Below, piece after piece: positions 16,981 to 21,878 of a stretch of 64,000 nt of DNA. The position numbers and the translations under genes are program-made. The DNA is from Chryseobacterium taklimakanense (GTDB lineage Bacteria; Bacteroidota; Bacteroidia; Flavobacteriales; Weeksellaceae). Within the stretch, counting starts at the first letter, position 1. Each line of letters starts with the position of its first letter. The DNA lies in assembly GCF_900187185.1 (NCBI RefSeq), contig NZ_LT906465.1:1302001-1366000 (forward strand), given 5' to 3'. Below the pieces are notes generated by a model. It was not told the DNA's origin. It worked only from the letters and a program-made list of their open reading frames with translations, and ran no database searches.

Positions 16981-19900
16981 CTATTTAACGATTAATTTCA
17001 CAGAAACGCGCTTTCCATTTTGATCAACAGCATTCAATATATAAACTCCTTTTCCAAAACGGGTAAGATCAAGATCGAGTTTTCTTTCTTTGGATTTTTT
17101 GTCCAAGATCAATTTTCCACCCATATCGTAAACTTTAGCGTCTAACGCTGTAACACTTGCACCTCCATCAATAATAAATAATCCGGAAGACGGGTTTGGA
17201 TATACTACAAGGCCCGCTTTATCAACTTTAATATCATCGGCCGCAAGTGTGGTTAAATCCACTATAACAGTTTGTGGCACAGATGTTTTTCCATCGGAAT
17301 ATACCGCATAAACATCATATTTCACTTGCCCCTGCGCTCCATTAACATTATCAGTTGCAACTGTAGTGCTGATATCACGAATTTCTTGTATAGTAACGTC
17401 GTTTTTCTTCACATCATATCCAAGAAGTTCAGGATATTTTGTGGCTGCGAAGGTTACTGGCTGGCTATTCTGGCTATTTTGAACAAATTTTTCGTCGGCC
17501 GACAGTGTAATTCCTTCTTTTACCTTTTTCATTTCAGCTTTCGTTTCATTCAACTGTTCCACAACTTTTTTTGCGTTTTTAGAAGCCCCAGTTGCCGGAA
17601 GAGAATTATCATAGCCTAGTGTAATATCATCCACCGCCAAATACCAAGCGTCTGCCTCCTTTTTGGTTTTATGGTAGAAGGCTAGGAAGAAATCTGAACC
17701 CGTCTTCGATTTGATATTAACCGTTACATCTTCAAAATTCTCATTTTCAAATCTCTGATCCAATACTTTATGTCCCGCCTTTACCTCGTCCAGCGTTGGG
17801 GCGCTGCCAGAAGCCGGTGCTGGCACCACGTAAACTTCTACGTCTTCAGGAAACGGAGCATAAGCACTGAATTTCAATATCTCTGAACCCTTTTTCAATT
17901 TATCTGTTATCATCCAGTTATCTGCATCAATGGCTAAGCCTCCGGAGTAAGAATAAGACACCATCCCGTAGGTTCCTGTTTTCGAGTAAATAAAGGATAG
18001 GCCCCCACTTACAGTATTAGCTCTGACCACCCAGTTTTTACCGTCTTTATTTTCATCGTAGAAAGTATAGCCCGGCGTGACCGCTCCTGCATTTTCAAAG
18101 CTTTCAAAGTAATTATTCAACATTTCCGGTCTTACCCAGGTTAGTTTTACATCTTTTGTAGATGAATCCAATACGTGCGACAGGTTTCTCACCGGGCTAT
18201 TATAAGAATCTACGGTGATATAGTCTTTTTTCTCCACGGTGTCTTCGTTCATTAAGGATTTTGCAGTAAGACTCACTGTATAAACACCTTTTTTATTGAA
18301 CACTACAGTTGGGTTTTTAGATGTTGAAGATGAGCCCGCAGCATAAGTAAATCCTGTGGATGGAGTAATATTCCAAACGTATGACGTAGGTGCAGGATTT
18401 CCCGCGGAGCTGTTGCTGAAGGCTACTTGCTCTCCTTCAAACAGATAAGTTTTGTTCGCAGAAAAACCAGCCGTGGTCGCCGTATTTTTTACCGTTATAT
18501 AGGATGTTTTGGTTAACTCATCGCTTCCAAATGAATTAGTTGCCTTTAGTGTAACAGCATAAACCCCTTCTGCGTTGAATTTTATCGTTGGCGATGCTGT
18601 ATTTGCATTACCAGTAATATATTCGAAAGTGGCAGGTGCAACCGTCCAGCTATAGCTTGTTGCCAACGAAGGCGATACTACAGTTTCATTATTCAAAATG
18701 ATATTTTCGAATGACGTTGGATTTGTTTTGCTTGCAGTAAAGGCGGCGGTAGGCTTATCTTCAGCTCTTTTAACCACTACATCATCTACAAAAACAGCAT
18801 AAGACTGTACATTTGTATCTACTTTCTGCTGGAATCCGAAGTGATAAACCCCGTCTTCCGTAGGCATAACCTCATAAATGTATTGTTTATAGGTTGATTG
18901 TGCCTGAATAACCGGACTTACCGCCGTAAGCATTGCGGCGCTTTTCGCTTCTTTACCGAAGAAAACCTGAAGCGGTTCCGCCATATCTCTCAACTTACTT
19001 GCGTGGAAAGAAATCAAGTATTTAGTATTAGCTTTCAATCTCAATGGATTAGAGAACAACCAGTCGTTGCTGCCTTTGGCTAGGTTGGCAAAATTTATTG
19101 CAAAACTGCTTCCATTTTTAGCAAATGAAGCTCCATTGTACTTATACCATGTTCTTCCGTTTCCATCGATATCTTCCGAAGTCCATCCATTCAGAACAAA
19201 ATCATCTTCAAAACCGAAAGTGTGCATTGTGCCTTGAGGAACTAAATCTACTACTGTGGTATATGCGGACGTATTTGCGTAATTATTCACCTCCACTTCA
19301 TCATTTGCAAACTCTGCTTTTGTCTGAATTTCATAGGCAATGAACGGCTTTGAAAGATCCAGCTCTATCGTTAAAGTTTGTTTTTCGCCAGCAGCCAAAT
19401 TAGCGACTGGTGAAGTGATGGTTGCCAAAACCTCACCACTTGCTTTATTTTTTAGAGTTGTAATAATGTTTGCCTCCTGTACAGGCAATGCGCCAATATT
19501 AGCGTACGAAATTTGAACCGGCGTTTTAGTAGAATACTCAGTACTTTCTGCTAACACTTTCACTTCGCTTACTGCCAAATCCTTCTGGACATCTTTTTTA
19601 ATTCCGGATGCTACTAAAGAAAAATCTTGCGAAGCTGCATCTACTAATTTCACAGTGTTTAGTGTGCCTAACTCGTTTTTCTTTAATATCCCTTTATGAG
19701 AAACCACCAGTTTATAAGTTGCTCCCGGCGTAGGATTATTAATGACGATTTGCTCCACATTGTCTCTTACGTTATCACCCGTTGTTGCTGGTGCAGCAGG
19801 ATTGGCGGGATCCAGAACCCAAGGCCTGTACTCATTGGTTCCATCGGTAATCTTTATATCTAAATCATTTACCAACATTTTGGCAGGGTCATCCAAAACA

Positions 19901-21414
19901 CTTGGATTAGATAATACTGCAGGTCTTGGATCCGTCCAAGCAATCGTCACCTTTAATGGTTCATTTCCGGAAGCCACTAAATCTATCTCTTTCAAGCTTC
20001 CGTTTTCCAATGTTTCTTCTCTTAGTAATGAATATTTGTTTCTTACAGAGATAACTTCTGCAGCTTTTTTAGAATCTAATAAACCCCAACCATGTTTATA
20101 ATCTGGCCCCGGGGCATCTCCCGCTTCTTTTGCCGTATGAATTACCAAAGCTCTTGTAGTTGCACTCTTCATAAACGAAGCATTTAGTCTGTTGAAGTGC
20201 TGTTGTAACAAAGCGATATTTCCTGTAACATTTGGAGATGCCATAGACGTGCCGCTTATCGAAAAATAATCTGCATTTCCGGTGGAATTGGTGGAATATA
20301 GATCAACACCAATACCTGTAATATCCGGTTTTATACGTCCGTCATCTGTGGGCCCAAATGCACTGAAAGAGGCAATTTTCACATCTTGCGGATTTCTGTA
20401 GCCGTAGGGAAGCTTTTCTGCAGCTGCTACAATTAAGGTGTTTTTAGAAGTTGCGCCTTGGTTTACTGTATCAAATCCATCTACACCGCCGTTTACCTGT
20501 CTTACTTTAGTAGAGGTTTTCCATACGTATTTACCGTTCTCTAAAATCCTTACATAATGCAGACCTCCTGGTGCGGGGCCGTCTCCTCTTGGGTTTCCGG
20601 CTGCTTTTACAGGTAGATAATAAGGATTCCGGGTAAGTAGAAAATCCCAGTCCCCGTCGGTAGTCCGGTATTGTCCGAAGCCAATAAATTCAGTTTCGGA
20701 ATCATCTCCCATCCAATGCCAACCTGTATTCCCGGAACTAGAACCGTAAGAAAACCCTCCGGTAAATCCATAGGAGTGGTTAGACATTAACATAGCGTTG
20801 TTTGCCGCTGCTGCCGCCATTTCCGTTAAATCGGAAGTCCAGTCATAAGCCTTTAAGTTAGCTTTGTAAGCCATTCCTTTTGCTTTTTTGTCCACACCGG
20901 CTGCAATAAGGGTTCCCGCAACGTGTGTAGCATGGTCACTTGTGCTTAAGGGAGAATCCATCTGTTTGGCGCGTCCTCCAAATTCCTGGTGGGCTACGCG
21001 CACTGCGCCGCCATCCCACTCAAAGACATTTACTCCTTCCCCATCCAATTTATAGGGCCCCGATAGATCATTAAGTACATCGGCACCAGTACCGGCGGCT
21101 GCACCGGCATTTGTGGTTTCATAATAAAGCGGCATTCCTTTCTCATCAAACCCAACCAGCTGAAACATTTTCCCATTATATTCATCAGAATATTTAATGT
21201 TCATTTGTTTAGCTTTTGCCATCAGCTCTTGTGGTGATGGCATTTCTTTTTCCCTAATTTTCTGAAAATTAACCGTTTCCGCGGTATTACTAAGGCTCCT
21301 AATTTTCCTTGCTTCGGTTTCAGTTTGTGCATACATCACTACAGAAAGAAGAGAGCTGGCAAGCAGTAATCCTCTTTTTCTTACCTTGATGATACCCAGA
21401 GTAGAGTTTGTCAT
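16981..21414 (-). CDS. Subtilisin-like S8 serine protease with CARDB, PKD and T9SS sorting domains
   Basis: 1477-residue secreted protease. Signal segment ends MYAQ near residue 30. A propeptide-like stretch (about 58-105, PQELMAKAKQMNI and GMPLYY) precedes the S8 domain (about 120-455) with catalytic Asp134 (FEWDGG), His161 (HATHVAGT), oxyanion Asn274 (AAGN) and Ser390 (SGTSMASP). A beta-sandwich resembling the KP43 type follows (460-600), then CARDB (about 612-710), a choice-of-anchor/MAM-like module (about 735), two PKD-type repeats (about 895 and 985), a second such anchor module (about 1110), and a type A T9SS tail starting VVYPNPSSG (about 1402-1477). It is preceded by a small lipoprotein resembling its propeptide, 140 nt upstream with no clear promoter in the gap. 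Confidence 0.9.
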   Translation of the reverse strand: MTNSTLGIIKVRKRGLLLASSLLSVVMYAQTETEARKIRSLSNTAETVNFQKIREKEMPSPQELMAKAKQMNIKYSDEYNGKMFQLVGFDEKGMPLYYETTNAGAAAGTGADVLNDLSGPYKLDGEGVNVFEWDGGAVRVAHQEFGGRAKQMDSPLSTSDHATHVAGTLIAAGVDKKAKGMAYKANLKAYDWTSDLTEMAAAAANNAMLMSNHSYGFTGGFSYGSSSGNTGWHWMGDDSETEFIGFGQYRTTDGDWDFLLTRNPYYLPVKAAGNPRGDGPAPGGLHYVRILENGKYVWKTSTKVRQVNGGVDGFDTVNQGATSKNTLIVAAAEKLPYGYRNPQDVKIASFSAFGPTDDGRIKPDITGIGVDLYSTNSTGNADYFSISGTSMASPNVTGNIALLQQHFNRLNASFMKSATTRALVIHTAKEAGDAPGPDYKHGWGLLDSKKAAEVISVRNKYSLLREETLENGSLKEIDLVASGNEPLKVTIAWTDPRPAVLSNPSVLDDPAKMLVNDLDIKITDGTNEYRPWVLDPANPAAPATTGDNVRDNVEQIVINNPTPGATYKLVVSHKGILKKNELGTLNTVKLVDAASQDFSLVASGIKKDVQKDLAVSEVKVLAESTEYSTKTPVQISYANIGALPVQEANIITTLKNKASGEVLATITSPVANLAAGEKQTLTIELDLSKPFIAYEIQTKAEFANDEVEVNNYANTSAYTTVVDLVPQGTMHTFGFEDDFVLNGWTSEDIDGNGRTWYKYNGASFAKNGSSFAINFANLAKGSNDWLFSNPLRLKANTKYLISFHASKLRDMAEPLQVFFGKEAKSAAMLTAVSPVIQAQSTYKQYIYEVMPTEDGVYHFGFQQKVDTNVQSYAVFVDDVVVKRAEDKPTAAFTASKTNPTSFENIILNNETVVSPSLATSYSWTVAPATFEYITGNANTASPTIKFNAEGVYAVTLKATNSFGSDELTKTSYITVKNTATTAGFSANKTYLFEGEQVAFSNSSAGNPAPTSYVWNITPSTGFTYAAGSSSTSKNPTVVFNKKGVYTVSLTAKSLMNEDTVEKKDYITVDSYNSPVRNLSHVLDSSTKDVKLTWVRPEMLNNYFESFENAGAVTPGYTFYDENKDGKNWVVRANTVSGGLSFIYSKTGTYGMVSYSYSGGLAIDADNWMITDKLKKGSEILKFSAYAPFPEDVEVYVVPAPASGSAPTLDEVKAGHKVLDQRFENENFEDVTVNIKSKTGSDFFLAFYHKTKKEADAWYLAVDDITLGYDNSLPATGASKNAKKVVEQLNETKAEMKKVKEGITLSADEKFVQNSQNSQPVTFAATKYPELLGYDVKKNDVTIQEIRDISTTVATDNVNGAQGQVKYDVYAVYSDGKTSVPQTVIVDLTTLAADDIKVDKAGLVVYPNPSSGLFIIDGGASVTALDAKVYDMGGKLILDKKSKERKLDLDLTRFGKGVYILNAVDQNGKRVSVKLIVK

Positions 21415-21554
21415 AAAATTTAATTTTTAATGGTTAATAAAAATTCTTTTAAATTATTTAATGATTAGTTGCCTTCAGGTATTTCACTTAAATAGAAATA
21501 AGAAGGCAGAAAAATAGAATCGTAATTACTACAAAGTAATCATTGAGCTGAGAA

Positions 21555-21878
21555 TTATTTCCGCTCTTCTACAGACACTTTCTGAGATTGACCCTGAATA
21601 TCTTTTGTTGTGTAATAGATAGGCATCCCCGTATGCTCATCGAAGCTGTGGAGCTCATACATCACCCCGTTCTCTTCTTTTCTGAAGGGAATATTCCTTT
21701 TTTTGGCTTCAGCCATCAGCTGTTCCTTGGTAGGCTGGCGAGATTTGAAGTAATCCAAAACTTTATCAGATTTATTATCAGGCTCTGATTGGGATGCCTC
21801 TTCTTTCTTGGGAGGCTGCTGGCAGGCAGCAGTGAGAATTAGTAGTAAGAATAAAAAAATAGATTTTTTCAATGTCAT
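21555..21878 (-). CDS. Propeptide-like lipoprotein upstream of the S8 protease
   Basis: 107 residues. Lipobox LTAAC puts the lipidated cysteine at residue 19, followed by a charged Lys/Glu/Ser linker. Residues 49-92 align with residues 59-101 of the adjacent subtilisin (its pre-catalytic region) with one single-residue gap and about half identical positions: LMAEAKKRNI against LMAKAKQMNI, then ENG-M-L, FDE and GMPIYY against GMPLYY. It has no protease domain. Subtilisin propeptides fold and inhibit their protease, so a membrane-tethered copy may act as cognate inhibitor or folding aid; that is inference. A consensus promoter lies about 170 nt upstream. Confidence 0.8.
   Translation of the reverse strand: MTLKKSIFLFLLLILTAACQQPPKKEEASQSEPDNKSDKVLDYFKSRQPTKEQLMAEAKKRNIPFRKEENGVMYELHSFDEHTGMPIYYTTKDIQGQSQKVSVEERK

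Follow-up and report, generated by a model that had tools for sequence, protein, structure and literature searches.

The window, by which we mean the whole stretch of 64,000 nucleotides of Chryseobacterium taklimakanense DNA that was analysed, carries on its minus strand a gene for a small lipoprotein, then 140 bases, then a gene for a large protease. The features of this locus are as follows.

21555..21878 (-): gene for a free-standing, propeptide-like lipoprotein of 107 amino acids, stop codon included (open reading frame and homology to the protease N-terminus)
21822..21836 (-): lipobox LTAAC, lipoprotein residues 15-19, with Cys19 as the predicted lipidated residue (direct sequence reading)
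21603..21767 (-): propeptide-like block, lipoprotein residues 38-92, ending in PIYYTTK (alignments)
21558..21602 (-): C-terminal tail of the lipoprotein, residues 93-107, with no evident similarity to the protease (alignments)
21415..21554 (-): intergenic gap of 140 bases between two genes on the same strand (coordinates)
16981..21414 (-): KP-43-type S8 protease of 1477 amino acids with a T9SS sorting domain (Pfam, TIGR04183)
21328..21414 (-): protease signal peptide, residues 1-29 (inspection and alignment)
21112..21327 (-): protease cis propeptide, residues 30-101 (alignments; PMC11982257)
20083..20967 (-): S8 catalytic domain, protease residues 150-444 (Pfam match)
16987..17205 (-): T9SS type A C-terminal sorting domain, protease residues 1404-1476 (Por_Secre_tail, TIGR04183)

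The protease matches the S8 family (7.8e-29) and Por_Secre_tail (4.3e-12) in Pfam as well as TIGR04183 (6.7e-12), and it also contains PKD and cleaved-adhesin domains. Among solved structures, KP-43 and SubHal are closest to it in sequence as well as in predicted fold, the fold match giving a Z of 39.7 against KP-43 (1wmd). We infer that its catalytic triad is D134, H164 and S390, with D134 lying just ahead of the stretch matched by Pfam. The window genome has a T9SS, as seen from a SprA match of 2033 bits. In the lipoprotein, the residues L-T-A-A-C agree with what we take to be the usual lipobox pattern, and the Pfam lipobox model gives a weak match (11.9 bits against a cut-off of 20).

The first-pass annotation had placed both reading frames correctly, and the similarity that it noted between the lipoprotein and the protease is significant. 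BLASTP aligns the two proteins at 47 bits (E 4e-11) with 25 identities in 66 positions, and the lipoprotein without its first 19 residues scores 113 against protease residues 20-150, whereas 2000 shuffles gave a mean of 29.5, a standard deviation of 5.4 and a maximum of 54 (z 15.6). The earlier count of about 22 identities in 44 positions was reproduced by eye as 22 in about 43, between lipoprotein residues 49-91 and protease residues 59-100. When the whole window genome was searched, the two matches of note were the lipoprotein and the neighbouring protease (E 3e-68 and 5e-9) and the third place stood at E 0.79; a profile search of that genome returned the same two genes and no others. The shared block had been described as pre-catalytic residues 59-101 of the protease, which are indeed homologous, but it is wider: in relatives the free protein runs parallel to the whole propeptide, about residues 30-101. 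Those relatives share an N-terminus made up of a signal peptide, about 70 residues of the block and then the catalytic domain.

The identity of the block as a protease propeptide is supported by work on Bergeyella cardium, in which the proteases SpBcA and SpBcB are reported to have an inhibitory N-terminal propeptide (Li et al., 2025; PMC11982257). In that report, the SpBcA N-terminal domain (30-103) is predicted to run through the active site, Edman sequencing places the new N-terminus at N102, and replacement of TSNA, the mapped cleavage peptide, with alanines leaves activity intact. An SpBcA variant without the propeptide was inactive protein (PMC11982257), and because of this result the role of the propeptide may be partly chaperone-like. 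Aligned with SpBcA, the window protease is predicted to be cleaved between T101 and N102. The block is homologous to the N-terminal domain of the protease and ends at this autocleavage site (101/102), as in propeptides of the SpBcA type, and the similarity of the free-standing copies stops at the same place, which bears out the earlier assignment of the block as a propeptide. The comparison with SpBcA/SpBcB thus holds for homology, for the start after the signal peptide and for the end at the autocleavage site; in contrast, the propeptide there lies within the protease, whereas the one in the window is the product of a separate gene and is predicted to be lipid-anchored. One of the genomes with a free copy, G014, encodes a protease with the TSNA and TSPGL peptides of SpBcA, in two copies with identical N-termini (L037 and L038, near 22.9 kb and 93 kb of the chromosome, identical over their first 150 residues). 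Since two identical proteins are also reported for SpBcA in B. cardium (PMC11982257), we infer from these sequence matches that G014 is B. cardium or very near to it.

The annotation had further called the block a subtilisin propeptide, which stands insofar as it is the propeptide of an S8 protease but not as regards the classical I9 type. SpBcA's propeptide is described as unlike I9 in sequence and structure (PMC11982257). I9 (PF05922) was absent from the families listed for either window protein at E up to 10 and gave no match in the 44 members of profile A6 at E up to 1, in searches whose HMMER filters discard the majority of matches beyond an E of about 0.1. Neither Pfam nor NCBIfam contains a family that gives convincing coverage of the block. 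Weak matches to the SAP domain were seen in 5 of the 44 A6 propeptide blocks (best E 1.2e-5) and probably reflect a shared helix-loop pattern. A plasmid search found no match, and PHROGs returned a single, unconvincing one (E 0.075).

We then consider how the block is distributed. A scan based on the protease alignment gave 570 confirmed places in Bacteroidota and a few other phyla, of which the best 80 were used; these 80 named loci were chosen through the S8 alignment and could not by themselves reveal the block elsewhere. Profile A2 of the block matched 76 of the best 80 of 570 loci at E up to 1, the exceptions being L131, L138, L159 and L181, and three profiles combined matched 78 of them at E up to 1e-3, although many of the 80 loci had contributed to profile A6, one of the three. 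All 82 long frames with the block in the best 80 of 570 loci also contained an S8 catalytic domain, and the sole short frame was the free copy of L110 (Cloacibacterium sp. MAG). At the level of genomes, the block was met in 78 of 320 from the window's family and 45 of 395 in the order sample (E up to 0.01), and in 43 of 395 and 40 of 395 in the class and phylum samples (E up to 0.001); the order, class and phylum samples overlap, as do the genome surveys, and the counts are lower bounds. The propeptide type of window positions 21112-21327 thus occurs across Bacteroidota and in some other phyla, with no Pfam or NCBIfam model that recognises it.

Among the loci fetched from the whole-genome searches, the block stood together with an S8 domain in 151 frames and alone in 27, in a tally of fetched loci only that overlap and count some genes more than once. 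The 27 block-only frames consist of the six free copies described below, broken or cut S8 genes and four weak matches. A generic domain occurring without S8 proteases had been named as the outcome that would undo the earlier proposal. As far as tested we reject it, since the fetched loci tie the block to S8 genes, free copies or damaged S8 genes, except for four unrelated-looking long frames with chance-level scores (L246, L248, L250 and L251; E 1e-4 to 7e-4). Further weak matches were recorded at E 7e-4 to 0.009 (G216:C22, G189:C24, G296:C9, G206:C13, G153:C102, G327, G420 and G498) and at E 0.001 to 0.008 (G139, G155, G044, G034:46k, G041, G1290 and G1229:C18).

Six free-standing copies were accepted: those of the window (107 aa), G247 (130 aa), G211 (120 aa), G014 (142 aa), G250 (121 aa) and G1177 (95 aa). 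G247, G211, G014 and G250 belong to the window's own family and G1177 to another, distant family of the phylum, so that free copies were found in 5 of the 320 genomes of the family and at one of the best 80 of 570 S8 loci. In four of the six (window, G247, G211 and G1177), the next gene downstream on the same strand encodes an S8 protease, at a distance of 140, 83, 139 and about 31 bases, respectively; the last value assumes an ATG start for the protease, picked by its signal peptide. The G014 copy has no S8 gene within its 15-kb neighbourhood, and the G250 copy lies near the end of a short contig with no protease downstream. On inspection, an export signal is present at the start of each of the six, and a T9SS sorting domain is absent from all of them. 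The proposal of a membrane-anchored copy therefore fits the window, with its lipobox, but the other five copies carry ordinary signal peptides. Likewise, the suggested two-gene system is upheld in that the pairing recurs, but the copies are rare, and we therefore regard the free propeptide as an accessory device rather than part of a fixed two-gene system.

Several other short frames were not accepted as free copies. Three of them, G014:C1:1204549 (178 aa), G147:C77 (92 aa) and G313:C21 (111 aa), each represent the front part of an S8 gene that is broken; G1216:C112 (118 aa) extends beyond the block to where the S8 region starts and stops near a contig end; and G1177:C71 and G296:C260 are S8 genes cut by the contig end. 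Frames of 244, 138 and 250 aa at L028, L029 and L030 looked unrelated by eye and gave no match to the three profiles, and profile A2 had matched other places in those genomes. The broken S8/T9SS protease genes were located in G014 (L034:4055-6858), G313 (L098:6753-10964) and G147 (L097:5544-7500), and G014 and G313 still have long paralogous frames.

The free copies end their similarity to the proteases in a consistent manner. In alignment A4, which comprises the window protease and 74 of the 80 frames after exclusion of six near-duplicates and is numbered by the window protease, P95, Y97 and T100 are found in 68, 72 and 74 of the 75 proteases, and all three are kept by each of the six free copies. 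N102, which directly follows the SpBcA cleavage point, is present in 74 of 75 proteases and in 28 of 30 of the tree set but in only one of six free copies (Fisher p 1.4e-6 for 74/75 against 1/6, which is overstated because the rows are related), and A105 and A106 occur in none of the six. Five of the six free copies have I96 together with T or S at position 99, compared to 4 of 75 proteases and 4 of 30 in the tree set. Beyond TT or its equivalent, the free proteins continue for 3 to 45 residues in unrelated tails, and the G1177 copy stops three residues past T100. Because the similarity ends at the SpBcA autocleavage site, the free proteins, judged by their sequences, correspond to the released propeptide and not to arbitrary front ends of the protease.

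We also examined the origin of the free copies with a tree of the block, a short alignment of 36 rows and 72 columns. A single clade is rejected both for all six copies (AU p 0.0003) and for the five from the window's family (AU p 0.015). The G247 and G211 copies each group with their own neighbour (96/87 and 92/83), the G1177 copy groups with its neighbour and two proteases of genus g6 (100/99), and the window copy groups with that of G250 (89/83), a grouping with its own neighbour not being rejected (AU p 0.21). Branches with strong support require three changes or more, with gain and loss indistinguishable by the tree test. Since the free copies are not one clade, the arrangement probably arose repeatedly, while exchange by gene conversion between a free copy and the adjacent protease gene could give the appearance of separate origins. 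Profile A7, for a second subtype, was built from G1177 and two proteases of genus g6, which is probably Chryseobacterium, and it matched 2 of 8 genomes in the G1177 family, 11 of 78 in the genus of G151 and 5 of 80 in the G1177 order, with no further free copy recognised in these searches. A third g6 genome was matched at E 1e-26 (L233:5160-7413), whereas the other 79 genomes of the G1177 order gave nothing better than E 1e-3; this pattern in the sequences hints at transfer between distant Bacteroidota.

This scattered and rare occurrence, together with the grouping of two adjacent copies with their own neighbours and the existence of broken S8 genes (G014:1204k, G313:C21 and G147:C77), would also be expected if each free copy were a functionless front-end remnant of a partial tandem duplication of the protease gene. 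Such remnants, in contrast, would not be expected to lose similarity at one and the same functional site in 6 of 6 cases with the preceding conserved residues kept, nor to retain intact signal peptides in 6 of 6 by inspection. In simulations of neutral survival, 0-3.5% of open frames persisted for the four copies with a protease neighbour, an estimate that is biased in that only intact frames were counted. Furthermore, pN (0.31-0.38) was below pS (0.58-1.02) in the three pairs measured, a difference owed in part to the protease side and obtained with synonymous sites near saturation. On balance, we regard it as unlikely that the free copies are such functionless remnants.

A predicted model of protease residues 30-593 has a mean pLDDT of 89 overall, with ten-residue means of 65-80 in the propeptide, 56 at its end, and values under 50 for residues 71-75. 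The propeptide shows the element order H-H-H-E-E-E in a part of the model with moderate confidence. Alignments of the model to several pro-subtilisins start at model residue 19-21, which is inside the propeptide as judged from end points only, and cover more residues than do alignments to mature forms: pro-Tk-subtilisin aligned over 291 residues at 3.6 A and the mature form over 262 at 2.2 A. The part of the pro-Tk-subtilisin chain matched in addition is presumably its propeptide. The model fits docking of the propeptide where classical propeptides sit. The lipoprotein alone is predicted to fold poorly (pLDDT 58).

Subtilisin propeptides act both as chaperones and as inhibitors, and this twofold role lends weight to an alternative in which the free propeptide would be a trans-acting folding chaperone for the large periplasmic protease before export, with inhibition only incidental. 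The inactivity of SpBcA made without its propeptide (PMC11982257) points in the same direction. However, the neighbouring window protease retains its own cis propeptide, so a second chaperone would be redundant, and we consider a dedicated chaperone role rather improbable.

With regard to location, a C-X-K-(D/E)2 surface-export signal is absent after Cys19 of the lipoprotein, where the sequence is QQPPKKEE (CQQPPKKEEASQ). This signal was defined in Capnocytophaga and is described as differing in other genera (PMC5080379). As the lipoprotein has no such signal it is expected to face the periplasm, and its exposure at the surface appears unlikely from the residues present.

We therefore return to inhibition, and we favour, with some reserve, the reading that the lipoprotein is a stand-alone inhibitory propeptide that acts in trans in the periplasm as a lock on the protease until T9SS export. 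Under this model, the lipoprotein would be exported by Sec, lipidated and held on the periplasmic side. Its block would dock onto the catalytic domain, with the PIYYTT strand lying product-like in the substrate cleft, such that a protease that had cleaved its own propeptide too early would be captured and blocked. The T9SS would then take the enzyme out and separate it from the inhibitor, which would stay behind with the cell because it has no sorting domain. The basis for this reading is the homology, the domain boundary at the SpBcA autocleavage site and the repeated pairing with S8 genes. Docking in the manner of a classical propeptide is not assured because the SpBcA report finds no structural similarity to I9 (PMC11982257). 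We count against inhibition the rarity of the copies, the poor predicted fold of the lipoprotein alone, the moderate confidence of the propeptide in the protease model, the behaviour of the two altered SpBcA forms, the grouping of the window copy with another free copy, although its own neighbour is not rejected, and the positions of the G014 copy, away from S8 genes, and of the G250 copy, which does not precede one on its short contig. The unlinked G014 copy, in a genome with several S8 paralogues, is also what would be expected if free propeptides inhibited other proteases, either S8 enzymes of neighbouring bacteria or a different S8 paralogue. In the window genome, in contrast, the neighbour is the only protease with a propeptide block that was found, and we consider such other targets very improbable.

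Gene pairs resembling that of the window have been described for the KLIKK proteases of Tannerella forsythia, each of which has a gene for a small putative lipoprotein in front (PMC4404884). These lipoproteins, the potempins, are said to inhibit the downstream KLIKK protease on the basis of data then unpublished, with two strains named as exceptions to the gene order (PMC7296668). Both systems thus have a small lipoprotein gene immediately in front of the gene for a T9SS protease. The six potempin genes, in contrast, are reported to have no mutual sequence similarity, and the passages on them (PMC7296668, PMC4404884) mention no similarity to protease propeptides. The window lipoprotein matched no PDB chain at E up to 10, and none of the 31 chains matched by the A6 profile is named potempin. 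Stand-alone mimics of I9 propeptides are described in fungi, plants and apicomplexans (POIA1, yeast proteinase B inhibitor, SPI-1 and SUB1-ProM), and Plasmodium SUB1-ProM is encoded beside subtilase genes (PMC6993865). As described there, these proteins are likewise stand-alone propeptide mimics, for which inhibition of a subtilase is reported, but they are eukaryotic and have the I9 fold, whereas the window block is bacterial and has no I9 match. Riemerella anatipestifer RAYM_01812/SspA, compared here by description only, is also a T9SS S8 protease with an N-terminal propeptide, reported to be inhibitory, and the passages on it do not mention a free copy (PMC11540087). A word search of the main text of PMC11982257 found no mention of lipoprotein, upstream, adjacent, operon, gene cluster or neighbour. 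Open-licence literature, covered mostly as titles and abstract openings, contained no bacterial stand-alone subtilase propeptide among the matches listed. By comparison with these systems, the concept appears known from eukaryotic I9 propeptides and the gene order from the potempin/KLIKK pairs, and the bacterial non-I9 version would be the new part. We tentatively propose, as a possibility short of probable, that the free copies form a class of stand-alone inhibitors derived from subtilase propeptides, the first in bacteria, one that is built on a propeptide type with no I9 relatives, was carved repeatedly and independently out of T9SS protease genes, always at the autocleavage site, and serves as a periplasmic lock before export.

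To our knowledge, it is not settled how a cell avoids damage from large T9SS proteases, which could fold and gain activity in its periplasm. A separate propeptide retained in the periplasm is a simple candidate answer to this problem. The retention of P95, Y97 and T100 with N102 left free provides a sequence rule by which further free copies may be found. Independent origins of the same cut point, if true, would clearly exemplify convergent evolution in which an enzyme gave rise to its own inhibitor.
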